DNA of 64,000 bases from Alloprevotella sp. Lineage in GTDB: Bacteria > Bacteroidota > Bacteroidia > Bacteroidales > Bacteroidaceae. A model generated the notes under the pieces. It saw only the letters and a program-made list of their open reading frames with translations. It did not search any database and was not told where the DNA came from. How positions within the stretch are numbered: the first letter of the stretch is position 1; each line of letters begins with the position of its first letter. The position numbers were made by a program, and so were the translations under genes. Positions 4,469 to 59,367 of this stretch are shown here, piece after piece. Location of the stretch: positions 124,001 to 188,000 of the forward strand of contig JAFUTC010000007.1 of the NCBI GenBank assembly GCA_017471505.1, given 5' to 3'.

Positions 4469-4595
4469 ATTGCATTATGGGACGGAAAAATTGCATAATA
4501 CAATCTGCCAATTCAATTATACAATTTTCAAATTCCATAATGCAAAAATTTTATCCCATTATGGAATCCGACGCATTTTATAATCCGATGCATTC
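4469..4595. repeat. Family A 21-bp periodic palindrome array, locus A1
   Basis: The 361-base gap between the HtrA gene and the thioredoxin-like gene holds a terminator, this array, and a lone -7-like TAAATTTG at 4617-4624. Units begin at 4469, 4490, 4511, 4532 and 4553, an exact 21-bp period; a degenerate unit follows at about 4575. Each unit is built on the odd palindrome ATTSCATWATGSAAT, for example ATTGCATTATGG at 4469 and ATTCCATAATGC at 4532. This copy is the most degraded of three related arrays (see 38613 and 59263). No function is known to me. Confidence 0.85.
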
Positions 4596-4712
4596 ATGCT
4601 ATTACACAGATATTTATAAATTTGTGACGGCAAACGAGCACGACTATGCGTCCGGCCGGCTTGCCAATCGAACGAAAGCATTCCCCTATTCCACCCCAAA
4701 TTCCCCACAAGT

Positions 4713-5225
4713 ATGAAAGCAAGAGCATTGGTTCTTCTGTTTGCAACTATGGTCAGCCTGACCATTTCAGCACAGAATCCTCTCAAGAAAGTATACAACG
4801 AATCAATTGACCCCATTGAGCAACTTGACCAAGCCATCGACCGTGCCAAGCAAGAGGGCAAGTTTGTCATTTGTCAGTTGGGTGGAAACTGGTGTATATG
4901 GTGCCTGCGCTTTGCCGACTACATCGAGAACGACAGCATTATCAAGCAGACCGTCGACGATAATTTTGTCTATATCCATGTCAATTATCATCCACGCCGC
5001 TCTAATGCCCCTGCCAAGGCCGAGCAGACAAAGGCGCTGCTGAAAAGGCTTTCCAATCCGGTGCGCTTTGGTTTTCCGGTGTTTGTAGTGCTCGACGAGA
5101 CAGGCAAGGTGCTTCATATTCAAGATTCTGGACTACTGGAGCAAGGCGACGGATATGACCACGAAAAGACCCTCAAATTCTTCCAGCACTGGAGTCCGAC
5201 GGAAGTAAAAAAGGCAGCACTATGA
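4713..5225 (+). CDS. Secreted thioredoxin-fold protein with CIWC active site
   Basis: 170 residues. A signal peptide (about 1-20, ending TISA before QNP) points to the periplasm. The Cys-x-x-Cys pair is CIWC at 61-64 in GGNWCIWC, preceded by a typical thioredoxin-like strand (KFVICQLGG). The segment GFPVFVVLDETGKVL near 117-131 supplies the cis-proline strand. This resembles DsbD-C/DUF255-like thiol reductases more than classical thioredoxin. The exact substrate cannot be told. Its stop overlaps the next start (ATGA), suggesting translational coupling with the small nucleotide-enzyme-like gene. Confidence 0.75.
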   Translation: MKARALVLLFATMVSLTISAQNPLKKVYNESIDPIEQLDQAIDRAKQEGKFVICQLGGNWCIWCLRFADYIENDSIIKQTVDDNFVYIHVNYHPRRSNAPAKAEQTKALLKRLSNPVRFGFPVFVVLDETGKVLHIQDSGLLEQGDGYDHEKTLKFFQHWSPTEVKKAAL

Positions 5226-5548
5226 TTAAAGGCTACAAGATTGTCACGCTTTGTGGCAGTACGCGATTCAAAGAACAGTTCTTTGAGGTGCAAAAACGCC
5301 TCACGCTCGAGGGTTGCATAGTCATCAGCGTGGGTTTGTTCGGCCATTCGGGCGACGACGAGGTATGGTCGGACGGCGTGAAGGAGATGCTCGACGACAT
5401 GCATTTTCGGAAAATCGACCTGGCCGATGAGATTTTCGTGGTCAATGTAGGCGGCTACATCGGCCATAGTACGCGCAACGAGATTGCCTATGCGCAGTCG
5501 GTCGGCAAAAAGGTTCGCTATCTGGAGGAACCAGCGGCCGCACAGTAA
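5222..5548 (+). CDS. Small nucleoside 2-deoxyribosyltransferase-like protein
   Basis: 108 residues, no signal peptide. It begins KIVTLCGSTRFKEQFFEVQKRLTLEG and contains DDMHFRKIDLADEIFVVNVGGYIGHSTRNEIAYAQ in pieces typical of the nucleoside 2-deoxyribosyltransferase / Rossmann-like fold (GSTRF loop, a D-x-A-D-E-I-F-V-V-N strand and a final S-T-x-x-E-I-x-Y-A helix carrying the Glu). Members cleave or transfer N-glycosidic bonds of nucleotides or act as unknown hydrolases; the exact reaction is not visible. The ATGA overlap with the upstream thioredoxin-like gene makes a two-gene operon of unclear logic, since one product is exported and the other is cytosolic. Confidence 0.6.
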   Translation: MIKGYKIVTLCGSTRFKEQFFEVQKRLTLEGCIVISVGLFGHSGDDEVWSDGVKEMLDDMHFRKIDLADEIFVVNVGGYIGHSTRNEIAYAQSVGKKVRYLEEPAAAQ

Positions 5549-5550
5549 GC

Positions 5551-8500
5551 CTATTTTTTCTTTTTCGAACGCCGTTTGAACAGTTCCTTAAACCGGCTGA
5601 AATTGCGGTTGAAGGCGATTCCAACGCCCTGAGTAGTAAGCGACGACTTGGTAAAATAGCGGTCGTTGGTCTTGCTATAGGCTTTCAGTCGGATTTCTCC
5701 TCGCGGCGTCAGCAGATATTGCACGTCGAAGTCGCCCACAAAGTTGCTTGTGTTGTAAGTATTGTCGCGGTAGCCGATATTGCCGTCTATCAGCAACCGG
5801 TTATTGAACAATCGGCCGGAAATCAAGGCCTCGGCTTCCATCGAACGGGTGCCCAGACTGCCCGTAGCCAGATTGGTGCCAATGGTCCAGTTCGACTGTC
5901 CGATAATACTCTGCAAGGCGTTGTTTATCTGCCCGCTCAGCATATTTGAAAGGAGCGACTTGGTGGCGGCAGAGGCTTGCGACTCCTTATATCCCTGCCC
6001 GATTTGCTCCGCATCTTGCGCGTAGAATCTGCCAACGGCCAACAGATAGGCAACCTGCCGCTGCAAATCCTCCTTAGTAGAGATTACGCTCTTAAACAGG
6101 TCGGCTTCGTCGCTATTAATATTGGGAAATTCGATATCAAAGGACACATCCGGATTCTGTACCTTTCCCTGCAAGTTTAGCAGGCAGTTAACCTTTGTAG
6201 TCGAGGTCGAAAGGTCGTTGCCGATATTCAAGTCGCGCAAAGAAGCCGAGTTGACCGTATAGACAGCCTGCATGTCCATGTCTCCCTCCATCGGATTGCC
6301 GCTGAAGGTAATGTGGCTGCCCTCCTTGAACGTGAATGTCTTGCTGATTATATTCTGAATCTGCAACCGATAAGACCCCTCCGACAGCGTGTAGGTGCCG
6401 TACATTCGGAAGTCGCCCTTATTGTAGAAATCGGCACGCATGACGCCCAATCCGCGTGTGGAAATCACGTCGCCGGTCTTTTCGTCCATCACCACTCTCA
6501 TTTCCGCATTTTCATTGGCCTCGATATTCATGTTCAAACGAATATCGCCCCGGTCAAAATCAGCCACATATCGGTTGATGGGGTCATCGTAGTCAGAAGA
6601 ATCGCCCTCTGCTGCATCCACATCCTTATGCACCTCGCCGATATGTACGAAAGGCGTCGACGAAGCATCGCCCGGCGAAGCCATCAGATAGACAAACGTG
6701 GTGCCAGGTTCGGTGACCATGTCAATATCCGCATCGAAACGGCCGGACTGTCCATACAAGTGAGCGCGACCTGTACCATAGGCCGTGGCATAGAAGGTCA
6801 TGTCGGGCGTTCGTGCTTGATTGTAGACGAACATATTATTGACGTTGGCCGTCATATCGAATTTGATGTTTTTCAGATGGTTGTGCAGCAGCGCACCATT
6901 GAGCGTGCCGCGTCCCTGCTTATTGTCGGAAAGAGCAAACTGCTCGAATGCGATTTTACCCGAGGTAAACCGAACCACACCGTCCGTCACGTCGTAATGC
7001 GTGCCTATCACCGGCACGTCGACGCTTGCCGTAACGCGCTCCACCCCTTCCAAGTCAAGTTTCTTCAGCGGGCCGTAAAGCACCACGTGCCCGGTTCCGC
7101 GACCGGCAATATTGTCGAGAATTCCTCCGACAAACTTCTGCAGGAAAGCAAGATTGGTCTGCGTGCCGTTGATATCAAGATGCAAATCTTTACGAGTCAG
7201 ATTGACATATCCCTCTACATGGGTGTCCGACTTCACTTGGCTACTGTCCGACTGGCTTATGTATCCGTCAAGGTCAATCTGCTTAGTCTCAAAATCGAAA
7301 CCACCTTTCAAGGTGAGCATGCCCATCTCGGCTCCGTTCAAATAGAGCGGCGTGGCCACCACATCGGCCTGCACGCGGTTGCCATCCTCTTGTCGGGTGA
7401 AACGTGCTTCTCCCGAAACGGGACCAGCGAAGTCTACATCATTAAAATTGACCAAGTCCATGATATATTCGAGGTCCAGGTTTTTCAGACTGGCCGTGAT
7501 GGCATCGTTCTTGTCCTTTGACAGGCTGCCATTTATCTTCAGTCCCTGACCTTCGCTCTGCAGTTCGAAGCCATCTACTAACAGACTGCCTTCATCGTAC
7601 AACAGTTCGCTCGGACTGATGTGCCACAAACTTTCTCCGAGAGAGAACTCGGACGGACCGACCATGATGTCAAGACGTTGCCCGTTCTGTCCGAAACCAG
7701 TAGTCGTCGAAACGCTACCTCTGACAGTTTCATCGTCGGGACATTGCCATTGTGCATTCAAATTAAGCAGATTGTCGGCAGCCTTGGCATCAACCGTCAG
7801 GTGAATATCTTTTCCGCCCAGTTCCTTACATCCCTGCACCAAAACATTAAGCCCGTCGTCAGCATCATCCACATACAGGCGCAAATCATTGAATTCCACA
7901 TTGCCATATTTGACATTGGGAGCGAAAAGAGTAAGATGGGTCGATTTTTCGTAGGGGGAAAGTTGGCCTTCAATGGCAATTGGACGACTGAAACTAAGCG
8001 GCAGATGGAAAAATCGTTCGTAGATGGATGTGGGACGCAAGATGCCACGCAAAGCCCAGTTGTCCGATTCATCATAACGGACCGACGGTGCGGGCAGTAA
8101 GCCGGGAAGCGCGGAATGGACTATCTGCTTGCCCACCGCAATAAGCCTGCCGACCGAGTTCTTACCGCTAATCTTCAAGTCGGCTATGTCGGATACGATA
8201 TCGAGGCTGTTTTGTCGGGAATCGACAGAGAGATTCGACAGATAGATACTCGTGTCGGCCGATTCAAGCGTCACATCTCTTAGGCTCAACTGTCCATCCA
8301 ACCGATTTCCCTGCATAGCGGCAATATCAACCTGTCCGCTTCCAGAGAACGACCGAAGTTCAAACGGCAACTTCATATTCAACGCCCGCAAATCAGCATG
8401 GTTCACCACAAAATCGCCCTTGACATCACGCAAACCACCAGAAAGCAGATTGCCTTCAATATGGGTCGTCAGATCTAGTTTGTCATCCAGCGAGGAAACA

Positions 8501-9948
8501 TCGAGCCGGCTTTGCTGCCGATTACGCCAGTCGGCATCTACCTTTAAGTTGTGGTAGTGTTGATTATTGTAAACCATCGACGGCACAAGTGCGGTGGCTT
8601 GAACCGACTGTAGTTTTCCGTCCGAATGTACGAGGTTCAATTTCGAATCCACATCCAATCGACTGGGCAGATTATGGTTGTCCAAGATTTCATTGAGTGC
8701 CAAGTTTTCTGCCCTGACATCTGCCACAAGCCGATTGTTCTGATAGGTGCCTGAGGTATGCACTTGCCCCTTCTGCGTATTCGCCTCGATATTGAAACGA
8801 TAGCCTGAGCCACTTCCTGCCCACAATTCACCGGAAGACTTAAGGAATCCCAGTCGGTCAATGGTCTTTTTGGTCGCATCCGCAACAAATGCGTCCGGAA
8901 TCTTATCCACAAACTGCGGAAGTACATTCAGTTCGTGAATCTTACTATAAACCTGCCGATGGTCCTTATCCGTCCAACTGACTGTATTGTCCGACTGGAA
9001 GGCAAGTGAATTGTCGGGAGTCCTTGCCGTAAGATTCGACCGCCAAAGTCCTTTCTGCAACGCATATTGACCGCTGATATCAACCGATTGGTTCCATTCT
9101 TTGAGCTGTGGCTGTATAAAACCAAAATCGCTCATAGTCACATGCAGCGGTTCAATGGTTCCGGTCGTGGAAATTCGCTCAATAAATGGCAGCGAATCAT
9201 TATCGTCCAAGCGAATGTCTACCTCTTTCTGGTTGATTTCCGTATTGGGCAGGCGCAAGAAAAGGTCCGACAGATGAATGCGATGCTTGTTTGCCTCAAC
9301 CTTAAAGCCTAAATGCTTGACATCTAAGCCAGACTGCTCCTTAAATGCCACCTCGCGGACACGCAGGTTAAGACTGTCGTCCTGCAAGGACTTCAGACTG
9401 ACGTTCGCGCTAAGGTTGTCAATCTTCAAATGGTTCGGGTCAATCGACTCCCCTTTCTTTTCTTTCAACTGATCGTCGTATTTGACATTCACCCTATGCA
9501 AGATGATGGAGTTAATACGCAAGTTGAGTGGCTTCTTTGTCTCGCTGTCCGATTTGAACGCATCCAAAATATATTGGAAATTGTATTCGCCCGATGGCTT
9601 CGACTTATAAAGACAGACATCGGCATCCAGCAACGAAATTGTGCGCAGAATCAACTGGTCGCCTAATAGCGAGCGCCATTCAATCTTTGCCGTCAGCGTC
9701 TTTGCCTTTACCATTTCAGCATCCGACTTATCTTTAATCCGGACGTCTTGGGCTATCACTCGATTAAACAATCCGATGCTGACCTTGTCTATAGTAACCT
9801 CCGAACCGACCGTACTTGTCAAGGCCGACGATACAACCTTTCCCATCCAACGCTGAGTAATGTCAAGGTTGAAAAATAGTATGGCCACAAGGTAGAGACC
9901 TATCAGTGTCCCCACCAGCCATTTTGCTATTTTACCTATGGTTCTCAA
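5551..9948 (-). CDS. TamB-like translocation/assembly module protein (DUF490)
   Basis: 1465 residues. One N-terminal transmembrane helix (WLVGTLIGLYLVAILFFNL, about 10-28) anchors it in the inner membrane. The rest is a long, beta-rich repetitive region of the AsmA/TamB type, expected to form a groove-like bridge across the periplasm. The C-terminal 400 residues carry the conserved TamB domain, with segments such as GRGTGHVVLYGPLKKLDLEG and SKTFTFKEGSHITFSGNP. Relatives act in outer-membrane protein insertion and phospholipid transport; the cargo here is inferred. The apparent start is TTG; no ATG precedes the membrane helix. It lies convergent with the gene ending at 5548, only 2 bases away. 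Confidence 0.88.
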   Translation of the reverse strand: MRTIGKIAKWLVGTLIGLYLVAILFFNLDITQRWMGKVVSSALTSTVGSEVTIDKVSIGLFNRVIAQDVRIKDKSDAEMVKAKTLTAKIEWRSLLGDQLILRTISLLDADVCLYKSKPSGEYNFQYILDAFKSDSETKKPLNLRINSIILHRVNVKYDDQLKEKKGESIDPNHLKIDNLSANVSLKSLQDDSLNLRVREVAFKEQSGLDVKHLGFKVEANKHRIHLSDLFLRLPNTEINQKEVDIRLDDNDSLPFIERISTTGTIEPLHVTMSDFGFIQPQLKEWNQSVDISGQYALQKGLWRSNLTARTPDNSLAFQSDNTVSWTDKDHRQVYSKIHELNVLPQFVDKIPDAFVADATKKTIDRLGFLKSSGELWAGSGSGYRFNIEANTQKGQVHTSGTYQNNRLVADVRAENLALNEILDNHNLPSRLDVDSKLNLVHSDGKLQSVQATALVPSMVYNNQHYHNLKVDADWRNRQQSRLDVSSLDDKLDLTTHIEGNLLSGGLRDVKGDFVVNHADLRALNMKLPFELRSFSGSGQVDIAAMQGNRLDGQLSLRDVTLESADTSIYLSNLSVDSRQNSLDIVSDIADLKISGKNSVGRLIAVGKQIVHSALPGLLPAPSVRYDESDNWALRGILRPTSIYERFFHLPLSFSRPIAIEGQLSPYEKSTHLTLFAPNVKYGNVEFNDLRLYVDDADDGLNVLVQGCKELGGKDIHLTVDAKAADNLLNLNAQWQCPDDETVRGSVSTTTGFGQNGQRLDIMVGPSEFSLGESLWHISPSELLYDEGSLLVDGFELQSEGQGLKINGSLSKDKNDAITASLKNLDLEYIMDLVNFNDVDFAGPVSGEARFTRQEDGNRVQADVVATPLYLNGAEMGMLTLKGGFDFETKQIDLDGYISQSDSSQVKSDTHVEGYVNLTRKDLHLDINGTQTNLAFLQKFVGGILDNIAGRGTGHVVLYGPLKKLDLEGVERVTASVDVPVIGTHYDVTDGVVRFTSGKIAFEQFALSDNKQGRGTLNGALLHNHLKNIKFDMTANVNNMFVYNQARTPDMTFYATAYGTGRAHLYGQSGRFDADIDMVTEPGTTFVYLMASPGDASSTPFVHIGEVHKDVDAAEGDSSDYDDPINRYVADFDRGDIRLNMNIEANENAEMRVVMDEKTGDVISTRGLGVMRADFYNKGDFRMYGTYTLSEGSYRLQIQNIISKTFTFKEGSHITFSGNPMEGDMDMQAVYTVNSASLRDLNIGNDLSTSTTKVNCLLNLQGKVQNPDVSFDIEFPNINSDEADLFKSVISTKEDLQRQVAYLLAVGRFYAQDAEQIGQGYKESQASAATKSLLSNMLSGQINNALQSIIGQSNWTIGTNLATGSLGTRSMEAEALISGRLFNNRLLIDGNIGYRDNTYNTSNFVGDFDVQYLLTPRGEIRLKAYSKTNDRYFTKSSLTTQGVGIAFNRNFSRFKELFKRRSKKKK

Positions 9949-10006
9949 TGTGAATGAATATTGTTTTCTGACGTTCGGCTATCGACTCGGTTTAACCGCT
10001 TATAGT

Positions 10007-10633
10007 CTAAACTGATTGCTGCTTCTTGAGCATTCGCTCGATATAAACACGCAAGATATTTACGGCACGTTTGTTCTCACCGCCTTGTGGGATGACTATG
10101 TCGGCATATTCTTTTGTCGGCTCTATGAATTCTCTGTGCATAGGCTTCAGCACTTTCCGATAGCGATCCATGACATTCTTGGCCGTACGACCACGCTCCA
10201 CGACATCGCGCTCTATTACACGAATCAAACGTTCGTCGGAATCGGCATCTACATAGATACGCAAATCCATCATATCACGCAATCGTTTCCGATATAAGGC
10301 CATTATTCCTTCTACAATGATTACGTCGGACGGTTCTACGTGGATTGTTTGGGGAAGACGGTCGCACAAGGGTACGCTATAAGTGGGCTGCTCAATGGCA
10401 CAGCCGTTTCGAAGCATGGCAATATGCTCCTCCAGCAAATCCCAGTCGAATGCATCGGGATGGTCGTAGTTCATCTTCCGCAACTCTTCCAAACTGACTC
10501 CTTCGGGTGCTTTTTTGTAGTAAGAGTCTTGGGGAATGATTGACACATGCCCTCCCTGAATTCGTTCGGCTATCTTATGAACGACTGTGGACTTTCCAGA
10601 TCCGGTTCCGCCTGCAATTCCGATGATAATCAT
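10007..10633 (-). CDS. udk: Uridine kinase
   Basis: Phosphorylates uridine/cytidine with ATP or GTP in pyrimidine salvage. 208 residues, normal length. Walker A GIAGGTGSGKSTVV at residues 4-17. The family motifs YDHPDAFDWDLL and VEGIMALYRKRLRDMMDLRIYVDADSDERLIRVIERD are present, as is the ERGRTAKNVMDRY segment. ATG start at 10633. It sits between batE upstream and the TamB-like gene downstream, all on the minus strand, so it may be co-transcribed. Confidence 0.95.
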   Translation of the reverse strand: MIIIGIAGGTGSGKSTVVHKIAERIQGGHVSIIPQDSYYKKAPEGVSLEELRKMNYDHPDAFDWDLLEEHIAMLRNGCAIEQPTYSVPLCDRLPQTIHVEPSDVIIVEGIMALYRKRLRDMMDLRIYVDADSDERLIRVIERDVVERGRTAKNVMDRYRKVLKPMHREFIEPTKEYADIVIPQGGENKRAVNILRVYIERMLKKQQSV

Positions 10634-10669
10634 AATAGTATTGATTGATGGTTTAGTTTATTCCGATTG

Positions 10670-11437
10670 TTAAATAATCTCAAGTTGCCGGGCAAGTATC
10701 CATCCCTCCGACTGGTCGGGCATTACTACGTGAATCCACTCTTTTGTCGTGGCATTCACCTCTACGACCATACCCTCGTATAGGTCTTTCAAATGCTTGG
10801 CCTTAGCATCGGGGCTGGAGTATAGTTCCACCTTCGTTTCCAACACGACTCCACGTTCTTTTCTATTATAGTAATGCCACTGCGAATAGGCCAGCCACCA
10901 ACAGCAAGCCATTAGCACGAAAGCAAGTACGCTCGCGGCAAACCACAACTTGCGCGGACGCTTGGCCTGCGCTATGTAGAACAGGAAGAAGAACAGGCAG
11001 CATAGCAGCCACATTATTCCGCCAATCCACGCCCACGTGGTCTGAGTGAATAGGTCGCGTACTTCCATAAACCAATCGTATAGGAAGAAGCGCGATGCGG
11101 GGACATTTGAATGATTCAGATTAGCGTTGAGGATATTGATATTATCACGCACGTCGGCATCACTGGGATTGAGACGCAAAGCTCTTTGGTAGGCACACAT
11201 GGCCCGCCCATATTGTTTCTGCCGATAGTAGGCATTGCCTAAATTATAATACAGCGCAAACGATTCTCCCTTCTTTAATGCACCCTCATAGGTTCTTGCG
11301 GCTTCTACATACTGACCGGAAGCATAAAGACTATCCGCCGACTGCCACAAATTAGGCTTTGCCTGAACAGTAGCAGTGGCAATGATACTGTTCATTAGCA
11401 ATACAGTCAGCAGGCGTATGTAGTGTCGGAGAAACAT
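10670..11437 (-). CDS. batE: BatE: TPR and SH3-like membrane protein
   Basis: 255 residues. Signal peptide about 1-27. TPR repeats span about 30-105 (ADSLYASGQYVEAARTYEGAL, YYNLGNAYYRQKQYGRAMCAYQRALRLNP). Two transmembrane helices follow (about 133-160 and 167-187), then a C-terminal SH3-like domain (VELYSSPDAKAKHLKDLYEGM...EGWILARQLEII). This architecture is that of BatE from the Bacteroides aerotolerance operon, whose molecular role remains poorly defined. The start codon overlaps the batD stop by one base (TAATG), so the two are translationally coupled. Confidence 0.87.
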   Translation of the reverse strand: MFLRHYIRLLTVLLMNSIIATATVQAKPNLWQSADSLYASGQYVEAARTYEGALKKGESFALYYNLGNAYYRQKQYGRAMCAYQRALRLNPSDADVRDNINILNANLNHSNVPASRFFLYDWFMEVRDLFTQTTWAWIGGIMWLLCCLFFFLFYIAQAKRPRKLWFAASVLAFVLMACCWWLAYSQWHYYNRKERGVVLETKVELYSSPDAKAKHLKDLYEGMVVEVNATTKEWIHVVMPDQSEGWILARQLEII

Positions 11438-13257: not shown

Positions 13258-13281
13258 TAACTCGTCGACAAGCCTGTATGT

Positions 13282-13289
13282 CAAAGGTA
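13282..13289 (-). promoter_or_regulatory. -7 box before batD
   Basis: TACCTTTG on the minus strand fits TAnnTTTG, 24 bases upstream of the chosen batD start. No clear TTTG is found at the expected -33 distance, so the promoter is only half supported. Confidence 0.4.
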
Positions 13290-13341
13290 TATTTAGGTAA
13301 AATTACGATGTACGCCCAGCATGGCAAAGTTTTTCAGTGAT

Positions 13342-17050: not shown

Positions 17051-17112
17051 CATTTCAAGGCTTGAAATGCGCGTTTCAGGGCTTGAAATGTCCATTCCAA
17101 GGCTTGAAACGG
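17051..17112. repeat. Family B 21-bp periodic palindrome array, locus B1
   Basis: The 345-base gap between mrcA and trmD holds the mrcA promoter, this array and the trmD terminator. Three units have cores at 17053, 17074 and 17095, exactly 21 bp apart. The first unit is a perfect 19-bp odd palindrome, CATTTCAAGGCTTGAAATG (17051-17069). The same three-unit element recurs at 26797 and 48786, with conserved spacers (ATGCGCG after unit 1, ATGTCC after unit 2). Function unknown to me. Confidence 0.9.
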
Positions 17113-26796: not shown

Positions 26797-26862
26797 CATT
26801 CCAAGGCTTGAAATGCGCGTTTCAAGCCTTGGAATGTCCGTTTCAGACCTTGAAACGGAACG
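26797..26862. repeat. Family B 21-bp periodic palindrome array, locus B2
   Basis: The 346-base gap between the nuclease gene and etfB holds this array and the etfB promoter; I see no gene in it. Three units have cores at 26799, 26820 and 26841 (exact 21-bp period). Units 1 and 2 are exact inverted copies of each other: CATTCCAAGGCTTGAAA (26797-26813), six bases TGCGCG, then the exact reverse complement (26820-26836). Unit 3 has its own 8-bp arms CCGTTTCA / TGAAACGG. Confidence 0.92.
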
Positions 26863-38595: not shown

Positions 38596-38612
38596 ACCAA
38601 ACCTGCCGAAAA

Positions 38613-38738
38613 ATTGCATAATGGAATCGAAAAATTGCATTATACAATCTGAAAATTGCATTATGGAATTTCGAAATTGCATTATGGAATTTTTCTGTCC
38701 CATAATGCTATATTTCTGTCGCATAATGGATTTTTCAA
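38613..38738. repeat. Family A 21-bp periodic palindrome array, locus A2
   Basis: Six units start at 38613, 38634, 38655, 38676, 38697 and 38718, an exact 21-bp period, between the divergent PorE-like and nagA genes. Units 1-4 read ATTGCATWATGGAAT or close variants; units 5 and 6 keep CATAATG at the centre with altered left arms. A typical unit is an odd dyad AAATTGCAT-W-ATGGAATTT. The array abuts the -33 region of the PorE-like gene and ends 28 bases before that of nagA. Confidence 0.93.
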
Positions 38739-42467: not shown

Positions 42468-42540
42468 CGCGGAGTGGAGCAGTTGGTAGCTCGCCAGGCT
42501 CATAACCTGGAGGTCATTGGTTCGAGTCCAATCTCCGCAA
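42468..42540 (+). tRNA. Initiator tRNA-fMet (CAT)
   Basis: 73 bases, clean cloverleaf: acceptor CGCGGAG/CTCCGCA, D stem GAGC/GCTC, anticodon stem CCAGG-CTCATAA-CCTGG with anticodon CAT, T stem ATTGG/CCAAT. The unpaired C1:A72 end and the A11:U24 pair are initiator hallmarks. The third hallmark, three G:C pairs at 29-31:39-41, is here A29:U41 followed by two G:C pairs. CCA is not encoded. Confidence 0.93.
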
Positions 42541-48785: not shown

Positions 48786-48851
48786 CCGTTTCAAGGCTTG
48801 AAATACGCATTTCAGGGCTTGGAATGTACGTTTCAAGCCCTGAAATGAAAC
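48786..48851. repeat. Family B 21-bp periodic palindrome array, locus B3
   Basis: The 310-base gap between the aminotransferase and the HU-like gene holds this array and one promoter; I see no gene. Three units have cores at 48789, 48810 and 48831, exactly 21 bp apart. Unit 2 (CATTTCAGGGCTTG, 48808-48821) and unit 3 (CAAGCCCTGAAATG, 48834-48847) are exact reverse complements over 14 bp. The array ends 14 bases before the -33 element of the HU-like gene. Confidence 0.92.
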
Positions 48852-48969: not shown

Positions 48970-49590
48970 ATGAATGAAAAAACTCGTTTCTCCCTCAAGG
49001 AGATGCCTGCCGGCATGTGGTCCGAAAGGCGAATCTATCCGAAAGTGACTGGCGGAGCCACCATGCAACCCGAAGCGGTGGTGGCCCATATTGCCCACAG
49101 CACGACGCTTACGGCGGCCGACGTGCGGGCCACGCTGACGGCGTTGCACGACCTGCTCGTCGAACAGTTGGCCTGTGGCAACAGAGTATGCCTCGAAGGC
49201 ATCGGCATATTCAACGCAACGCTTACTCTCAACGCCAAAGGTGCCGACAAACTGAAGCAGGGTCGGAAAATTATCGGTAGCGACGTGGCGCTGAAGCGCA
49301 TCTGGTGCCGAACGGCTCCCCTATTGCGCCGCCACGTAGAAGCCTCCCTCTCGCCCACTCCTCAACCCAAAAGCCGTGCCGGTGGCGATGAAACGGTCGA
49401 TACCATGGAGGCGCGACTGGACAAGGCCCTTGCCTTCATCGGCGAACGGGGGGCCCTCTACCTGAACGACTATGTCGGACTGACACACCTCAGCCGCACC
49501 ACCGCATGGCGCGAACTAAACCGACTAGTAAGTCTAGGCCGTCTGCAGAAAGAAGGCTCGGGCGCACGCACTCACTATGTGGCCGGCTAA
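48970..49590 (+). CDS. HU-like DNA-binding protein with C-terminal winged helix
   Basis: 206 residues, basic. The N-terminal 125 residues match the HU/IHF-like (HU-HIG) proteins of Bacteroidales: YPKVTGGATMQPEAVVAHIAHSTTLTAADVRATLTALHDLLVEQLACGNRVCLEGIGIF (in parts), a helical dimer core leading into a beta arm. A proline-rich linker (LSPTPQPKSR) leads to a C-terminal winged helix (about 140-206, VGLTHLSRTTAWRELNRLVSLGRLQKEGSG). The fusion suggests a sequence-reading nucleoid protein or regulator. ATG at 48970. The 3' end overlaps the facing DUF1460 gene by 4 bases. Confidence 0.78.
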   Translation: MNEKTRFSLKEMPAGMWSERRIYPKVTGGATMQPEAVVAHIAHSTTLTAADVRATLTALHDLLVEQLACGNRVCLEGIGIFNATLTLNAKGADKLKQGRKIIGSDVALKRIWCRTAPLLRRHVEASLSPTPQPKSRAGGDETVDTMEARLDKALAFIGERGALYLNDYVGLTHLSRTTAWRELNRLVSLGRLQKEGSGARTHYVAG

Positions 49591-50453: not shown

Positions 50454-50482
50454 AGACACATGGGGGGAACGGACCGACAAGA

Positions 50483-51058: not shown

Positions 51059-51081
51059 AGTCGGTTGACAAGTGGGTCGGA

Positions 51082-54000
51082 CTAACGATTAAGCATGAAG
51101 CGGAAACTCAAGCCAAAGTCCTGCGTAGTGGTCGGATAGGAACTCGACGTCAGCAAAGGTCGCGTCAGGAGTCGTTCATAATAGGCCGTAACGGTCAGAT
51201 AGCGGCTCAGCGCATAATCGGCATTGAAACTGACCTGAACTGAATGCGACCCGCTCGTGGCCTGCGACAGCAGCGTCATTATATCGCGGTTCAGCGTCGT
51301 TTGGTCGCGCAAGGTGAAATCAAGACGCAGATTCAGCGTGTTGGCAAAGCCGCGTGCATTAGTAGAACGCGACCGCGAACTGCTGCTATTATTGTCGTCG
51401 TCGGAACGGAACGGATTCGAACGCTTCTCACGCACCGTGCGACGCGGCTGGAAGAGTTTCAGGTCGTTAATCTTATAGCCTATGCCGATGACAAAGTCCT
51501 TCGAGTGGGTTTCGTTGATTTGCAGATTGGTCATACTGAGCGTCACGACGCGAGACTTACGATATTCGATTTTTGCCGAGATATCGTTGCGGAGCGTCAT
51601 ATTTATACCAATCAGCGGCGAAAAGCTTTCGTTCAGCGACACCATAGAGAAATTGTACATGGAGCCAGGTATCGGCATGCCTGTCTCTACGTCGGGCAGG
51701 AAGCCCAGTTCTCCGGTAAACTCTCTGAAGGTTGAATAGGTATTGAACGAACCTACGCTGTAGATACTCCTATAGGCGTGAGTCAGCGTAAAGCTCTTGA
51801 AGATGCGCCGCATAGCATTCAACTTGGAAAGTCCGGCATAGGAAATGTTCCAGTTAGGCAGCAGTTTCTTCAGTTTGGGGAACAAACCGACCCCACCGCC
51901 GCTCGCGGTATAAGCCTTGAGGAATGCCGGCACAAGCACGTCGGACGAATAGCGACTAACCGTTCCGTTTTCGGGGTTGAAGGTCTGACCCGCCATCGGC
52001 ATACCATTGGGATAGGTTGCGCCTATGTACTGCGCCTCGACCCTATCGCGGAAATCGGCAAGCGAAGCCACAAACTTTTCGAAAGTACGGCTTCTGTATC
52101 CGTTCTTCGCACTTCCGATTGAAGCGAAGGCGGTTCGCAGCGAAATGGTGGTTTGCGTAAACGAACCCGATATCGTTGTCGGCATACCCTCGTACATATA
52201 TTGTATGCTCTTTGCTCTATTTGTGTTGCGGGTGGCGGTAAGGTCTATCTTGAAATCTCGGAACGGTTCCAAAGTGGCTCGAATTTCAAGATTGCGGTTT
52301 CGGTTGGTCGTAGCCGGAGTTACAATCGTGTCGCACATCAGCAGTAAGTTGCGCTTTGCTGCCTTCTCAATATAACTATCTCCAGTAAAACCAAACGCAA
52401 AGCCAAGTCCCGGCTTCATGCCCGATAATGAACCCTGTCCGAAGAAGTCGCCAATATCCGGAAGGAAGCCAGGCAGCGTCATGTTGTAGCGGTCGGTGTA
52501 ATTGATACTGATATTGCGCACCATCATGAGTCCGCGTGTGGTGTATTCAAGTGCCTTGTACCAACGCTGTTCTTCCTTGCGTTGCTTCGGGGCTATGGTC
52601 ACCTTGACCGTATTCGTATCGCGCGTAAGGATTTCAATACGGTTCGCATCAAGCACCTTATAGTTAAGTTTCACGCGAGCACCGTCTTTGTTGATGGCAG
52701 CAAAGCGAATGTTGCGCGAATGCTGCGAATGGACAACAATGACGGATGTGTCGGCCTGCAACTTAATCTCGCTCTGATACTGCTGAGGCTTATCTTTCGA
52801 TTTATTCTTCGCACTCTTCGACGTTGTACGCGAACTGCTGGAGAACTTACGGTTGACGGCCTTCAGGAATGGCACATGGTTGTAGAGCGTCTCCATGTTC
52901 AGGCGCGACATAACGCTAATTTCACGTCCGTTGGAGATGGTGTTGCCCATCTTTGAGCCGTCCTCCAGTTTCGTACCACGCTCCCACATGTAGTTAGAAC
53001 GATAGTTGAAGTCGACCGTGGTCCAGTCGAGCGCCGGTATCAGATTGAGCGGCAACTTCCATGAGAAATCAAAATTCTGTTGATAGTTGATGGGCGCACC
53101 AAAATGCAACAGACTGCGACGAACGGAGTCTTTCCATGCCGTATAATGGTCGGGATAGAGGTCCTTATTGATGGCAGTGTAAGGTTGCTCTATCTCGGCG
53201 TTTGTACCCGAGGTAAACGACAGGTGTATATTCTTAGTGAAGTCCCAACGCAGTCCGAACGTACGATTCCATACGAAGTCGGAACTCCAATTCAAAGGAA
53301 TGCTCTGATTCTCTAAGTTCTCCATATCGCGCTCCTGCATCTCGTAATAGGTTCGATTGATGTCAGAGTTGAACGTAATGTTCTGCGGAGCAAAATTGAA
53401 CCCAAACCGCTTGAGAATATCCCACCACTTGCTTTCGCTCTTTATCCACTTCTTGAACGGCTCAACCGTTTCGAAGTTCGTGGTATAGTTGTAGTTGATA
53501 TTCCACTTCCAATTCAAATGCTTCTCCCATACTGTCGTATGGCCGGTCGTATGTGTCGACGAATGGGCATATCCAAATGTAAAGTTCGCCGGGTCGTAGG
53601 GCATCGCATGACGGGCCGTCCGAATGTCGAAACGGACACCCGACAACGAGAAATTCTTGTTTACAACCACCCGATTGGCAATTGCTTTCAGCGAATCGCG
53701 CTCTGCTTTTGTTTCCAAGGCATTGAGGGCGTCGTCCATAGGCATGTCGGTGTCGAGCGGGTTATACTGTGGCGATACCTTCTGCTTGTTGTAAGAATAG
53801 TATAGCGGGGCATTGAGTTTCACCTTGTCGGGCAGGAACTTACCTAACTGGACATTGGTGGACACATTATACTCCAGCAGATTATCATCGCGGCGCTGAA
53901 GCACAGATTCTTCCAATCCGCCAAAACCGTTGGTCTCCAAGTGGGCCGAAGCATCAACCGTACCGATGTCCGATACTTTTATGTTTACAGATGCCTGTGC

Positions 54001-57000
54001 GGCCCAACCTCCCTTATTGGAAAATTCCTGAAGGCGCAGTTCGTTGGCCCAAACCTCTATGCTCTGAGTCTCTCGCGAGTTGTTGCGCACGCCAATCATT
54101 ATGGTACGCACATCGCCAAGAGTCGGATTACCCATCACGCTAATCTTGTTGGCCGGTTTGTCGGGGTCATATTCCGAATAAACCTGGGCATAGGAGGACA
54201 TGCCAAGGGATTTCTGACGATTTCTATTGCGCTTGATGTTGGTGAATAAGGTAAAGTCGATGTCAAGCATATTGGCTTCGGGCCAAACAGCCAGCGCTCC
54301 CGAATTAGAATTGGCATATTGTCCGGCAGGAGTCACTTGCAGGGGTATCTCATACTCATAGTAGTTGGACTTATAGTCCGACCCCAGTCGTATAAAGAGT
54401 GCCACCTGTCCATCTTCGACCTCCGGCTCGCCTATCAAAGAGTTTGCGTGGTTAAACATTTGCAAATGCTTGTAACGCCTAAGGTCGAGCGACGTGTTCT
54501 TATAGACGGCTTTCGCATCTCCGCTGGCCAGGTTTTTAACCGTAAGGGCAAGCGCCTGTTCATTATTCTCTAGCAATTCGCGCTGACCTGGATCGATGAC
54601 ACGACTGACACCGGGAGGAATCACATAGTTGACGGGAGTCTTCTCGTTATTCTCTTCAAAATTAACAGCACTAGCCTCGAGCGAACCACTGGCATTGCCA
54701 GACTGCGAACCATAGTCCAGACTCTGCTCATAGGTTCTCCATTCGCCACGGACTAAATTAAGCGTACCAAAACGTAAGACGACGTGCTGGTCGAACCCTG
54801 TAAGGAACATACGCATAAAGCGCAACGAATTGTAGCCCGTGATTCCGCCGACATTTCTCTCGTAGTTTTCGACAGGAATACGGAACAAATACCAGGTAAC
54901 AGACTCGGACGTACCGTTTCGAAGAGGCGCCGTGGCCGTACGACTATCTACGATATAGTTCCGACCGACAACCATGTCCTGAGGTGCGATGGACACGTGG
55001 TACTGATAATACTTTTCGTATTCGTTAAGCGTGTAGTCCTGGTTTACATCCTCGGCGTCGGGAGTAGTCTTATAGGCCGTCGAATAAGATTCGGCTGAAC
55101 TCTCGGCGTCCCTGGAGTTTCCGTTCGGATTGTTGATGTATTTGTAGCGGTCCTTAATGGAACGTTGCTGGGCATCGTAGTCCGAACCACGGAAATAATG
55201 GTACAGGTCGGCAGAAGGACTCCGCAAAATGCTGTCATAGACTTCGGGAGTAACCCGGCCTTGCACGGCTTCCAAGTAATTGCGGTAGGCAGGGAAATTA
55301 CGCTCGTCGGCCGAAGAAAGTCCATTCAATCCGACATCCTGACGCTCACGGCTGCCGTTTGCCGTATTGAACGCGTAGGTAATACTGGTCTGCGTGGGAA
55401 CACGTCCCCAAGTCGTTTCCGAATAGAGAGAGCTGTTGTCGTCAACGGGTAAGCCGCTTTCGTAGAACTTCTTTCCGTCCTTCAACACATCTTCGCTGAT
55501 TTCACCCAGGTTAAAGTAGAGATCACCTTGCACATTCCGACCGTCGCGCCGCGCCTTGATAAACGGGTCCATGAGCCAGAATTCGATGTATTCGATATTG
55601 GACGCCTCGAAATCGCTTGTCTGAAGACGTCGCATCATACCACCCCATCGCGTAGAGGGCGAAGGAAGATGTCCGTTCGACTCTACATTCGGATCCAAGT
55701 TATATGGGCCACGCTCATTGGGGTAATATGCCAAGTTAAGCACATTTAGTGATGCGCTCTCGGTCGTATTAATTTGTCGGTTGGGGAATAGTTCCGTCTT
55801 GTAAACCTCGCGGACATCATGGTCGGAAAGTTGTTCCAGGTCGTTCTTTATGTGTGCAGGCGTAAGGCTAGAAGTGCGGCGCGTAAACAACGGGTCGATG
55901 TAATACCACGACAATAATGCACGATTGTATCCATATCGCACGTCGTTCGAATAGTTCGACTCCGGGAACATCGAAGGCACACTTGAAATCGTCCACTCCT
56001 TGGGATTCGATATATCGATATCCGAACTGGTTGTTTCAAAGTCGTCCAAATAGGAAGCCTTAGCCTGTGCTCCCCTATTCTTACCGGCTATGAGATGTGC
56101 AAACTCTGCCGAGAAATTTATACTTGAGGGTTCGGTGGCATGCACAAGCGGAATTTTGTCCACAAGGTTTGTGAGCCACATGTTGTCGGACTTATAGTTC
56201 AGATTGAGGCCCCAAATCGTATTGTTGAGTGCTTCCTGGCCCATCGTGACCTTTGTCGTCAATGGCTTCTCCCCCAAGTGAAGCAACGTGCCGCCTATTA
56301 TAAAATTCTTGGAGAAGTCATATTCCCAATTCAAACCGACAAGCGTCTTGCGCTGCATTCCATATTCAGTGTTACTCTCAAGATGCACACTGATTGGAGT
56401 ACCGGCATCGAGCAGACTGCGATTCAATATCTTCACGGTTCCACCATAGTAGTCGACGCTATAGTCTGACCCTTCGACCAGCTTAACTCCGCCGGCCGTA
56501 ACTTCTACCGAACCGCGCGGAACATTGATTGCGCCCAGCGAAATCTCGTCCTCGCGACTCGCCTTATACTGGCCCTGAATGATATACTTGTCTTTCTCTG
56601 CTATCTGCTTGGCTACCGTCTTGGTTGAATCGTAGAGTTCGTCGAACACATACTTGTCGGCCAGAGCATCATTGCCAATCACCTTGCGCAGATAATCGCC
56701 GAACGGCTCAACCGAGGTGAAGAAAACGCGACCATCATCGGAGCTGATTGTATATCCCTCCACGAAGTCGAAATATGCGTTCGGATTGCGCTTATTATTA
56801 TTGTCGAGGCGGTCGAGACCGAGCAGGTCGAGCAGATTGCGGTCCTTCAGCGTCGGACTGGGCAGATAGGTAAGATAAACTCCGGTGGTGTCCGAAAGAT
56901 ATTTGATATTCAGCCGGAATTGTTCGCGCTGCACACTGGAAGCACCGAGATTGTAGACGTTCTTCATCATCAAATCCCAGTTAGGTTGCTTGGGCGTGCA

Positions 57001-58485
57001 GGCCGTATTCTTCAATGCCTTGACAAAAATAACCTCGGAAGCATCCTTATGGTCGGTTGAAAATTCACCAACTTGAAACGTCTGCCCGCGATAAGTGTAC
57101 TCGTAGGCAACAGCCAACACCTGGTCGGTTTGCATAGTCGAGCGCAACGAAACATACCCAAGTGTCGAGTTAAGGTTGTATTCCGACGAGGAAAGCAAGC
57201 GTGCAGATTCGAGTTTTTCATAATCCACGCCGCCGACAAGTCCGATACCGTCGAGCACGGGAGTAACACTCGAGATATTTCGAGCATCGGGGTAACTGCC
57301 GCTAATAGTCTCGTAGAGGTTGTTCGAGGTGTTCGACGGATTTTCCAAAGACCCCTTGGACCACATCGGATTTGCCGTGTGCGACTGCTCGGCCATATCG
57401 GCAAATGCCACTATGTTGCGCGTATTTGTAGTTTGGCCCGTCTTGTTTGTAACCCAGATTTCAACTCGGTTAATAACGACGCCACTCACAATGTTGGGAA
57501 GTTGCAACATATTGACGTCATATTTGTCGCGGAAGAAGTGTCCGAGGAAGAAATGCCTATTTTCATCGTAGTCGTCCGCACTAAATTCGTACGAACTCAA
57601 CTGTACTCCGCCCTTAGAACTCACACTTTGCGAAGAACTTTTCTTTTGCGCCAGAATGGTTTGAAGTTTCAATTTGCCGAATTGCAAGTCCGTACGGATA
57701 CCGAACAATGAGGAAGCGCCACGGACGAGTGAGTTGTTGCTCGGCATTGATACGTTTCCGGCTTCCACCAACTTGATAATCTCGTCCTCCTTGCCTTGGT
57801 AGCGCAGTTTCAACTTTTGCGCATCGAAATCGAACGTGGAGTTTGAGTTGTAAGAAAAGTCCATTCCAAGCTTATCTCCGACCTTCGCATTGACACTTAC
57901 ATTGATGTTTTCGTCGAAGTCAAAGCTAAAGACTCTTCGGTTACGTTCCGAGAGCGAAGGGTTATCTACAAATCGCGTGTTAGCCCCAAGTTTCAACTCG
58001 GCCGAACCTTGTGTCTTTATGCGCACCCCACCTGGACCGAAAATGCGGTTTGCAGGCCCCAAATCGAAGTGCATATCCGTAAAGTCGAACTTTTCTTTGC
58101 CTTTCTTCTTGTATTCTTCAGCATTCTTCTTGCGGAAGTATTCGCGCATGGAACTATGAATTAGGCTGCTGTTTACTTCCGACTCGTCCATTTCAAAAGG
58201 AGGCGAAAGCCATTCCTCGCCTAATTTCGTGCCATACTTATACGATTGGGTCTCCTCATCGTAGAACACGCCCGTCTTCAGATTCTCCGGGTCTTTCAGA
58301 TCGGTGGACGACGAAGTTACTGGCTTCTGCGTCTGTGCACCCGTCTTCTTTACGGGGAAAAGCACGGAGTCGGGCGGTGTCTGAGCCACTTGCTGCTCAG
58401 GCGTCCTGGGCTGTGCCTCGGTCCAGTTATGGCGCAGCCACAGAGCATGCGAGGCAAGCGTTGCCATCAGCATCGCAACAATCAA
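51082..58485 (-). CDS. sprA: SprA/Sov, type IX secretion system outer-membrane translocon
   Basis: 2467 residues from TTG 58485, in the usual 2300-2500 range. SprA forms the large outer-membrane barrel through which T9SS cargo passes. Family markers run the whole length: GPANRIFGPGGVRIKTQGSAELKLG near 170, GGKNRGAQAKASYLDDFE-like segment near 850, many SprA beta-strand repeats, and a C-terminal barrel ending YPTTTQDFGLSFRFMLNR with a final aromatic-rich strand. The first residues after the TTG (IVAMLMATLASHALW) look like the core of a signal peptide whose basic N-region lies upstream in an open frame without ATG/GTG/TTG. Upstream neighbour is ruvA, a linkage also seen in other Bacteroidetes. 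Confidence 0.95.
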   Translation of the reverse strand: MIVAMLMATLASHALWLRHNWTEAQPRTPEQQVAQTPPDSVLFPVKKTGAQTQKPVTSSSTDLKDPENLKTGVFYDEETQSYKYGTKLGEEWLSPPFEMDESEVNSSLIHSSMREYFRKKNAEEYKKKGKEKFDFTDMHFDLGPANRIFGPGGVRIKTQGSAELKLGANTRFVDNPSLSERNRRVFSFDFDENINVSVNAKVGDKLGMDFSYNSNSTFDFDAQKLKLRYQGKEDEIIKLVEAGNVSMPSNNSLVRGASSLFGIRTDLQFGKLKLQTILAQKKSSSQSVSSKGGVQLSSYEFSADDYDENRHFFLGHFFRDKYDVNMLQLPNIVSGVVINRVEIWVTNKTGQTTNTRNIVAFADMAEQSHTANPMWSKGSLENPSNTSNNLYETISGSYPDARNISSVTPVLDGIGLVGGVDYEKLESARLLSSSEYNLNSTLGYVSLRSTMQTDQVLAVAYEYTYRGQTFQVGEFSTDHKDASEVIFVKALKNTACTPKQPNWDLMMKNVYNLGASSVQREQFRLNIKYLSDTTGVYLTYLPSPTLKDRNLLDLLGLDRLDNNNKRNPNAYFDFVEGYTISSDDGRVFFTSVEPFGDYLRKVIGNDALADKYVFDELYDSTKTVAKQIAEKDKYIIQGQYKASREDEISLGAINVPRGSVEVTAGGVKLVEGSDYSVDYYGGTVKILNRSLLDAGTPISVHLESNTEYGMQRKTLVGLNWEYDFSKNFIIGGTLLHLGEKPLTTKVTMGQEALNNTIWGLNLNYKSDNMWLTNLVDKIPLVHATEPSSINFSAEFAHLIAGKNRGAQAKASYLDDFETTSSDIDISNPKEWTISSVPSMFPESNYSNDVRYGYNRALLSWYYIDPLFTRRTSSLTPAHIKNDLEQLSDHDVREVYKTELFPNRQINTTESASLNVLNLAYYPNERGPYNLDPNVESNGHLPSPSTRWGGMMRRLQTSDFEASNIEYIEFWLMDPFIKARRDGRNVQGDLYFNLGEISEDVLKDGKKFYESGLPVDDNSSLYSETTWGRVPTQTSITYAFNTANGSRERQDVGLNGLSSADERNFPAYRNYLEAVQGRVTPEVYDSILRSPSADLYHYFRGSDYDAQQRSIKDRYKYINNPNGNSRDAESSAESYSTAYKTTPDAEDVNQDYTLNEYEKYYQYHVSIAPQDMVVGRNYIVDSRTATAPLRNGTSESVTWYLFRIPVENYERNVGGITGYNSLRFMRMFLTGFDQHVVLRFGTLNLVRGEWRTYEQSLDYGSQSGNASGSLEASAVNFEENNEKTPVNYVIPPGVSRVIDPGQRELLENNEQALALTVKNLASGDAKAVYKNTSLDLRRYKHLQMFNHANSLIGEPEVEDGQVALFIRLGSDYKSNYYEYEIPLQVTPAGQYANSNSGALAVWPEANMLDIDFTLFTNIKRNRNRQKSLGMSSYAQVYSEYDPDKPANKISVMGNPTLGDVRTIMIGVRNNSRETQSIEVWANELRLQEFSNKGGWAAQASVNIKVSDIGTVDASAHLETNGFGGLEESVLQRRDDNLLEYNVSTNVQLGKFLPDKVKLNAPLYYSYNKQKVSPQYNPLDTDMPMDDALNALETKAERDSLKAIANRVVVNKNFSLSGVRFDIRTARHAMPYDPANFTFGYAHSSTHTTGHTTVWEKHLNWKWNINYNYTTNFETVEPFKKWIKSESKWWDILKRFGFNFAPQNITFNSDINRTYYEMQERDMENLENQSIPLNWSSDFVWNRTFGLRWDFTKNIHLSFTSGTNAEIEQPYTAINKDLYPDHYTAWKDSVRRSLLHFGAPINYQQNFDFSWKLPLNLIPALDWTTVDFNYRSNYMWERGTKLEDGSKMGNTISNGREISVMSRLNMETLYNHVPFLKAVNRKFSSSSRTTSKSAKNKSKDKPQQYQSEIKLQADTSVIVVHSQHSRNIRFAAINKDGARVKLNYKVLDANRIEILTRDTNTVKVTIAPKQRKEEQRWYKALEYTTRGLMMVRNISINYTDRYNMTLPGFLPDIGDFFGQGSLSGMKPGLGFAFGFTGDSYIEKAAKRNLLLMCDTIVTPATTNRNRNLEIRATLEPFRDFKIDLTATRNTNRAKSIQYMYEGMPTTISGSFTQTTISLRTAFASIGSAKNGYRSRTFEKFVASLADFRDRVEAQYIGATYPNGMPMAGQTFNPENGTVSRYSSDVLVPAFLKAYTASGGGVGLFPKLKKLLPNWNISYAGLSKLNAMRRIFKSFTLTHAYRSIYSVGSFNTYSTFREFTGELGFLPDVETGMPIPGSMYNFSMVSLNESFSPLIGINMTLRNDISAKIEYRKSRVVTLSMTNLQINETHSKDFVIGIGYKINDLKLFQPRRTVREKRSNPFRSDDDNNSSSSRSRSTNARGFANTLNLRLDFTLRDQTTLNRDIMTLLSQATSGSHSVQVSFNADYALSRYLTVTAYYERLLTRPLLTSSSYPTTTQDFGLSFRFMLNR

Positions 58486-58570
58486 TAGTGCAGTATTTCG
58501 CTCGAATCGTCCTATGGCTTCAATCTTTACAGGGTTCCAACGGATAAATGATAGTAACTTCGCAATTGAC

Positions 58571-59164
58571 TTAAAGCATCTTCAGCGCTTTTCGTATGAT
58601 TTCCTCGACAGTTGCCTCGGGGTTTTCCTTGATAACCTCAAGGGCCGCTTTCTGTGCAATAGCAGGCGGGAATCCGAGAGTCTGCAATGCGCTGACAGCC
58701 TCCTTGGCCTGCTCCGAAACTGCCGGGCGCCGGTTCGTACCATCGCCCGATTCGATGCCTTGAAGTTTCTGTACTTTCTTTCGCAGGTCTAACACAATGC
58801 GTTGGGCGGCCTTTTCGCCGACGCCTTTGACGGCCTTAAGCGAACGAACATCCTCTTCAGTGATTATATGCACAAGGTCGGCAGGCGGATAGGCCGACAG
58901 CACCAGCCGAGCCGTCTGTGCGCCGACGCCATTGACCGTCGTGAGCAAGTCGAAGAGTTCGCGCTCACTGCGATTGAAAAATCCGAAGAGTTGATAGGCA
59001 TCTTCGCGTATCAGTTCGCGAACCAGGAGTTTTGCCTCTTCTCGCCCTTGAAGAGCCGTATAGGTGTTTACCGTAATATACAGCCCGTAGCCTACCCCAT
59101 TGGCTTCGATAACCACTGATTCGGGCGTCAGGCTGTCTATCTTACCGATTACATATTCAATCAT
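58571..59164 (-). CDS. ruvA: Holliday junction branch-migration protein RuvA
   Basis: 197 residues from ATG 59164; 24 further upstream codons are open but unlike the family. Binds four-way junctions and loads RuvB. Domain I OB-fold MIEYVIGKIDSLTPESVVIEANGVGYGLYI (in parts), domain II helix-hairpin-helix motifs LLTTVNGVGAQTARLVLS and SLKAVKGVGEKAAQRIVLDL, and a C-terminal UBA-like domain III (AVSALQTLGFPPAIAQKAALEV) that contacts RuvB. The stop is followed directly by the open frame of sprA. Confidence 0.96.
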   Translation of the reverse strand: MIEYVIGKIDSLTPESVVIEANGVGYGLYITVNTYTALQGREEAKLLVRELIREDAYQLFGFFNRSERELFDLLTTVNGVGAQTARLVLSAYPPADLVHIITEEDVRSLKAVKGVGEKAAQRIVLDLRKKVQKLQGIESGDGTNRRPAVSEQAKEAVSALQTLGFPPAIAQKAALEVIKENPEATVEEIIRKALKML

Positions 59165-59223
59165 ACTAATGCGTTTATGCGCCCCTATGACGGGCATTGA
59201 CACAATAAGCCAATATATTAAAG

Positions 59224-59231
59224 CAAAAGTA
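59224..59231 (-). promoter_or_regulatory. -7 box before ruvA
   Basis: Minus-strand TACTTTTG fits TAnnTTTG, 59 bases before the ruvA ATG; the -33 region is not convincing. Array A3 starts 31 bases further upstream. Confidence 0.4.
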
Positions 59232-59262
59232 AGCAATTCACTTGGAACTACCGCGTATTTTT

Positions 59263-59367
59263 ATTGCATAATTGCACAAAAAAATTGCATAATGGAATTT
59301 TGAAATTGCATAATTGAATTTTTGAATTGTATAATGCAATTTTTCGATTGCATAATGCAATTTTCGG
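59263..59367. repeat. Family A 21-bp periodic palindrome array, locus A3
   Basis: Five units start at 59263, 59284, 59305, 59326 and 59347, an exact 21-bp period, between the divergent ruvA and guaA genes. Unit 5 is a perfect 15-bp odd palindrome, ATTGCATAATGCAAT (59347-59361); unit 2 extends as a 19-bp dyad with one mismatch. The array reaches to 12 bases before the guaA -7 box, so the last unit occupies the -33 position. Confidence 0.94.

Follow-up and report, generated by a model that had tools for sequence, protein, structure and literature searches.

A 64,000-nucleotide stretch of an Alloprevotella genome (the window throughout; bases 124001-188000 of contig C4 of genome G000, a 1.44-Mb assembly that is 77% complete) contains six arrays of short palindromes, and raises the question of which protein these arrays might bind and what they might do on the chromosome. 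A sequence-only reading had described the arrays as 19-bp odd palindromes repeated with a 21-bp period in 3-6 units. Consistent with that description, TRF reported period 21 at 6/6 of the window arrays, and the sequence itself resolved into three arrays of family A and three of family B, all made of 19-bp odd palindromes at a 21-bp pitch. The family B unit has the consensus CRTTTCAAG-S-CTTGAAAYG and is present as three strong units in each window B array; the family A unit has the consensus AAATTGCAT-W-ATGCAATTT, and the window A arrays score as 5, 6 and 4 units. Note that the palindromes are imperfect (6-9/9 pairs in the units tabulated, and fewer than 6 in certain A units). The arrays, together with the protein that we propose as the family B binder, are as follows.

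4467..4569, unstranded: family A array of 5 units at 21-bp pitch, between HtrA-like and thioredoxin-like genes (co-directional)
17051..17111, unstranded: family B array of 3 units with a weak in-phase unit adjoining, between trmD-like and PBP genes (co-directional)
26797..26857, unstranded: family B array of 3 units, between endonuclease_NS and ETF genes (divergent)
38611..38734, unstranded: family A array of 6 units, between OmpA/TPR and amidohydrolase genes (divergent; the left gene call overlaps the first unit, and its gene start is uncertain)
48787..48847, unstranded: family B array of 3 units, 5' of the HU-wHTH gene
48970..49590, plus strand: HU-HIG protein of 206 aa, the proposed family B binder, with an HU domain (PF18291) and a C-terminal winged-helix region
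59282..59363, unstranded: family A array of 4 units, between ruvA and guaA (divergent)

An Rfam scan of the window and three loci placed no RNA family at the arrays, its sole match being a tRNA gene at window positions 42468-42540. (An unusually long open frame, of 2467 aa, occupies window positions 51082-58485 on the minus strand.)

Anatomy and abundance of the arrays

Palindrome strength was measured at each in-phase position around the arrays. Arrays of family B, and those of the B' family of the related genome G002, have strong dyads at positions -1, 0 and +1 and weaker ones at -2 and +2 (for B, 5.1 sd at -2 and only 2.4 sd at +2; for B', 4.1 and 4.8 sd). The A arrays have about five equally strong dyads, from -2 to +2, and their AT-rich positions are phased with the helix. 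Among the outer units of B arrays, several resemble A (centre CATNATG) and some are complete A units, so that the two families can stand in phase within a single array; mixed in-phase arrays of the forms BBB+A (C1:172026, BBBA) and A+B' were indeed found.

The arrays are not confined to the six loci of the window. In detailed scans of contigs C1 (340 kb) and C4 (308 kb) of the same genome, a weight-matrix search found 65 arrays in 648 kb and 0 in a reversed-sequence control, with matrices that had been trained on these same arrays; 59/65 of the arrays were strong (46 A and 13 B). Genome-wide, family A has 327 sites with at most two mismatches (control, 0) and family B has 41 sites with at most three (control, 1). 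The 21-bp period that the sequence-only reading had singled out also proved to be special. In particular, a motif-free scan of C1 and C4 for three in-phase palindromes at periods of 12-79 showed clear enrichment of odd palindromes in threes at two periods alone, 21 and 42, with 48 (C1) and 37 (C4) W19 matches at period 21, 10 and 7 at period 42, and 0-1 elsewhere. Exactly three strong units are present in 13/13 B arrays of C1 and C4, and high-scoring units fall inside arrays in 38/38 cases for B, 87/87 for the B' of G002 and 187/191 for A. We conclude that the arrays form a real, genome-wide and orderly system.

Contig C8 of the same genome (L063, 7162 bases) carries the same B array and neighbouring unit as C1:79308-79387, and its array probably represents that place once more, as a duplicate or a strain variant. 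The B arrays are concentrated on C4 (10/13 of those in C1 and C4; Fisher P 0.014). GC skew on C4 turns, terminus-like, from mostly positive to negative at about 90-100 kb.

HU proteins with a winged helix and the dyads upstream of their genes

The gene that starts 122 bp past the B array at 48787 encodes a protein that matches PF18291 with an E value of 5.5e-16 (59.2 bits, passing the curated cut-off of 26.2). Its C-terminal winged-helix region matches PF22168 under the cut-off (E 1.5e-4, 22.5 bits, cut-off 27) and aligns with 13 other members sharing this region. Against TIGR01201 (HU_rel) the protein scores 56.2 bits, below the NCBIfam cut-off of 68.6, which among five proteins scanned only that of P. 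massiliensis passes (86.3).

We compared 31 HU-HIG frames of at least 130 aa, 14 with the winged-helix region (HU-wHTH) and 17 without it, and scored phased dyads upstream of their genes at P<=0.05 against dinucleotide shuffles. Such dyads precede 11/14 HU-wHTH genes and 0/17 HU-HIG genes without a winged helix (Fisher P 4.3e-6), and because the latter genes lack arrays, the association is a specific one. In a larger set of 36 HU-wHTH genes, which are not fully independent because the set overlaps the first 14 and includes six pairs at 70-100% protein identity, phased dyads lie 5' of 24/36 genes versus 0/36 of the downstream stretches (P<=0.05), with 12/36 upstream regions falling short of that threshold. 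(The added loci come from collections of plasmids and phages, and many of the supposed plasmids look like pieces of chromosome; L390, in which no open frame was found, is left out.) At P<=0.01, and over a range of 15-35, the upstream periods were 21 in nine cases, 22 in nine, 33 in five, 27 in three, and any other in at most one. The secondary excess lies at a period, 33, that is 1.5 times the 22-bp unit, which suggests that the centres between units are also symmetric.

The proposal, made from the window alone, that a single class of DNA-binding protein exists in versions of different specificity gained support from these genes. HU-wHTH genes of several Bacteroidales are preceded by differing phased dyads, and this is true even of the two paralogues in G036 and the two in G020. 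Moreover, the palindrome before the HU-wHTH gene is the dispersed family in G000, G002, G036 and P. massiliensis; in G036 only one of the two paralogues' palindromes is dispersed (106 kb examined). Distinct upstream palindrome arrays precede the HU-wHTH genes L346 (G036), L331 and L354 (G020), L341 (B. cutis) and L358 (G035), and the sequence examined of each of these genomes showed no further array of the palindrome concerned. The recognition-helix region differs between the G000 protein (LSRTTAWRELNRL) and its G002 orthologue (QTHSTAWRELQRF), a contrast of helix and half-site drawn from one pair of proteins that differ elsewhere too.

The correspondence between proteins and arrays varies among the genomes. 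G015, G017 and G020 have HU-wHTH genes and gave no clear dispersed family in 140, 140 and 60 kb, respectively, and the G011 HU-HIG protein with a full frame (137 aa) is without a winged helix, though G011 has triplets. In line with the association, G004 (99% complete) gave only short HU-like matches and, in 120 kb, no 21-bp triplets. A candidate binder, the HU-wHTH protein, emerged for family B and none for family A. Pfam scans covered 13 of the 32 genes that follow A arrays on C1 and C4 (ten directly and three through the same or overlapping frames) and showed no DNA-binding regulator; three of the ten match no family. No A sites lie within the 1.05 kb read at a partial HU-like gene on contig C15 of G000.

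With a candidate protein class that is statistically supported, we think it probable that HU proteins carrying a fused winged helix (HU-HIG, PF18291) are what binds at the arrays, which would act as chromosome-organising bending nodes and in autoregulation; the link between HU-wHTH genes and arrays is statistical, and the binding, the bending, the autoregulation and the chromosomal role are inferred. Each array would be a platform of about five dyads spaced two helical turns apart (three strong dyads and weaker outer ones in the B type, about five equal ones in the A type), with one dimer of the HU-winged-helix protein per dyad, the winged helices reading both half-sites and the HU parts bending the DNA. 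A pitch of 21 or 22 bp would set all dimers on one face of the DNA, and we propose that binding would as a result be cooperative and the bends additive. An HU-wHTH gene behind such an array would be autoregulated, and the G000 arrays, which recur about every 10 kb between genes of any orientation, would be chromosome-organising nodes, possibly serving as topological or bending anchors.

Placement along the chromosome and in related genomes

The sequence-only reading had placed the arrays always 5' of gene starts. This is so in the window, where 6/6 arrays lie 5' of a gene (four between divergent and two between co-directional genes), and is not so beyond it. By the analysis's own simple gene calls, 0/59 strong arrays of C1 and C4 lie inside genes, 31 lie between co-directional genes, 15 between divergent genes and 13 between convergent genes. 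Set against every intergenic gap of 60 bp or more (174 co-directional, 52 divergent and 38 convergent), divergent and convergent places are mildly over-represented (chi-square P 0.04); among the B arrays, 7/13 are between divergent genes.

The strong arrays are also evenly spaced. On C1 (32 strong arrays) the mean gap is 10.2 kb with a CV of 0.45, and on C4 (27 strong arrays) it is 11.3 kb with a CV of 0.35 and a minimum of 5.0 kb. Random draws from intergenic gaps gave a CV of about 0.91, and the observed evenness was reached in 0/10,000 draws. For the strong arrays of three G002 contigs, evenness had P values of 0.02, 0.07 and 0.02 (0.18, 0.02 and 0.06 when weak arrays were counted too), and in G036 the CV was 0.40 over 12 gaps among the matches listed. 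The dispersed arrays of P. massiliensis are uneven (CV 0.91).

These placements bear on a reading in which the arrays are the operators of a large regulon, controlled by a global transcription regulator (HU-wHTH or other), and are not part of chromosome structure. The position of every window array 5' of a gene, the share of B arrays at divergent pairs, and the presence of arrays before the HU-wHTH genes themselves are all what such a regulon would produce. However, 13/59 strong arrays sit at convergent pairs, the scanned neighbours (20 window proteins and 10 others) are mostly unrelated housekeeping genes, and the arrays are far more evenly spaced than random picks of intergenic gaps. We therefore regard a regulon as unlikely, and the convergent arrays and even spacing reject, or at the least weaken, a role at promoters only.

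The places of the arrays are inherited while their families change, with inner bases differing between B and B' and with A able to occupy the B' place of a relative. Among 36 other genus members searched, family A occurs in number only in G002 (25 sites with at most one mismatch, compared with 0-2 in the remaining members). The B' palindrome of G002, RTTTCACA-S-TGTGAAAY, is found in triplets, and its half-site differs from that of B in the inner two bases. Contig C14 of G002 is syntenic in blocks with C4 of G000, the aligned DNA of the two genomes being only about 65-86% identical, and B' triplets lie at the same places as the window arrays at 17051, 26797, 38611, 48787 and 59282; the triplet facing array 48787 is likewise 5' of the G002 HU-wHTH gene. 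In all, a G000 array occupies the same place as 14/15 mappable B' triplets (7 facing A and 7 facing B), 16/21 mappable G002 arrays have a G000 counterpart (two share one G000 array), and 15/19 mappable G000 arrays have a G002 counterpart (B, 7/7; A, 8/12), so that 4/12 mappable A arrays are without a counterpart in G002 and 1/15 B' triplets without one in G000. When positions were shifted as a control, 1.8 of 23 matched on average, with a maximum of 8 in 300. Thus, since the arrays of G000 and G002 coincide though their motifs differ, places have been kept while sequences changed.

Other genomes carry other families. G036 has YRTTACAAASTTTGTAAYR (294 and 300 strand matches; controls, 1 and 0), usually in arrays of four units, and triplets with a 22-bp pitch and weaker outer units are scattered through P. 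massiliensis DSM 17679 (62 and 64 strand matches; controls, 1 and 3). In the P. massiliensis elements L282-L297 the triplet is visible in 13/16 stretches (three stretches, L282, L288 and L297, hold N runs that misled the palindrome script), and in the elements the units are ordered and the outer ends inverted (GGAAGATTATTACAGTCT ... AGACTGTAATAATCTTCC). In 1.32 Mb of sequence around guaA, from 80 named loci of Bacteroidales type, threes of similar palindromes occurred 11 times at period 22 (in 10 loci), once each at 21, 23 and 30, and at no other period from 17 to 60, figures for which the between-period comparison alone counts because reversal preserves palindromes and renders the reversed-sequence control void. 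G011 has triplets, and G035 has a CAAATTAAGSCTTAATTTG array that matches none of the HU-wHTH operators examined. We found one weak 21-bp triplet match in 140 kb of G017, one candidate in 140 kb of G015, and no 21-bp triplet in 120 kb of G004 or 60 kb of G020. Spread in phages was rejected or at least weakened for A, B' and the G036 family, whose tandem patterns gave 0 matches in viral contigs.

Copies that are many and dispersed, and P. massiliensis elements with ordered units and inverted outer ends, might also be expected of selfish repeats of a MITE- or REP-like kind, which could have become evenly spaced via target immunity. Such an origin seems to us improbable, as the flanks of the G000 and G002 arrays are little or not conserved (past the first outer unit, 0.08-0.21 bits per base at 22-42 bp and 0.08-0.13 bits per base at 43-80 bp), and the arrays keep their places despite the divergence of the aligned DNA while their sequences differ in concert. 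In addition, no Y1 transposase match was found in G000 and G002 (both incomplete), G011, G072 or B. cutis. (Y1 transposase was found in 6/11 genomes, including the array-bearing G036, G035 and P. massiliensis.)

Returning to the HU-wHTH reading, we suggest, more tentatively than the binding itself, that Bacteroidales chromosomes may carry a chromosome-wide lattice of sequence-specific HU fusions and five-dyad anchors (about every 10 kb here), in which places are inherited, every anchor sequence changes along with the specificity of the protein, and the rival families A and B can take over the same anchors in phase. This would be an example from nature in which a DNA-binding protein and its sites, numbering tens to hundreds and kept at inherited places, have changed in concert. 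For chromosome organisation in Bacteroidales there is now a named candidate protein family with putative DNA sites, and binding, bending, autoregulation and folding can be tested directly, for example in cultured P. massiliensis.

Comparison with known systems

A nucleoid factor of another kind with two-turn phasing (Lrp/AsnC, ParB-like, or wrapping of the gyrase type) would make the neighbourhood of HU-wHTH genes incidental, and we hold this to be a poor prospect, since arrays are missing at HU-HIG genes without a winged helix. The B' half-site resembles parS, which, like the helix-phased AT-rich positions of the A arrays, would suit such a factor; parS, however, is 16 bp long and even. A ParB paralogue acting at parS was rejected or at least weakened given the single ParB per genome in five genus members (none matched in G000 or G002) and array units that are odd and longer than parS. 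The recognition helix of the G002 Lrp protein is unlike those of other Lrp orthologues, and Lrp-family sites are reported to be 15-bp semi-palindromes that are multiple and regularly spaced at one target (PMC4977709). Nevertheless, in a comparison with 8/11 Lrp proteins recovered (those of G000, G015 and G017 being absent), the recognition helices are identical in G036 and G011 despite different arrays; the helix thus does not track array sequence in this pair, and Lrp/AsnC is rejected or at least weakened.

The literature searched yielded no description of such arrays, no DNA sites for HU-HIG or HU_rel proteins, and no paper on chromosome organisation of this kind in Bacteroidales. The window protein matches both HU-HIG (PF18291, above cut-off) and HU_rel (TIGR01201), and what is added here is a winged-helix subclass statistically tied to phased palindrome arrays.

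BrickBuilt of P. gingivalis, which the sequence-only reading had offered as a distant parallel, is a MITE of 19 copies with 23-nt repeats, a leader, a tail and inverted-repeat ends (PMC4596501). It is likewise from Bacteroidales, intergenic, and built of tandem units of about two helical turns. The parallel did not hold up, as the pitch here is 21 bp and not 23 nt, flanks are unconserved beyond the outer unit, the G000 array flanks are without leader or tail, and neither G000 nor G002 arrays have conserved flanks or terminal inverted repeats; we therefore do not assign the arrays to BrickBuilt or other MITEs. In ParR-parC plasmid centromeres, tandem repeats are wrapped by small DNA-binding dimers; these share the tandem repeats, and differ in having one site per plasmid and a protein of another family.

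The nearest known kind is that of dispersed sites of a chromosome-organising protein. MatP-matS, SlmA and Noc are structuring proteins that act on short palindromes dispersed over the chromosome as single sites; the arrays resemble these in their dispersed short palindromes, with protein binding here the putative element, and differ in having about five phased dyads per array, about every 10 kb, with a sequence that varies between species. The archaeal SegB, a RHH protein, has 46 dispersed odd 13-bp palindromes with an S centre that are linked to chromosome organisation, mostly intragenic and conserved in motif (PMC12284271). The odd palindrome, the S centre and the dispersal are alike, whereas the arrays described here are intergenic, tandem and of changing motif. 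What sets the arrays apart from this nearest kind is therefore the combination of tandem two-turn dyads, a candidate protein that joins HU to a winged helix, and motifs that turn over while their places are inherited.
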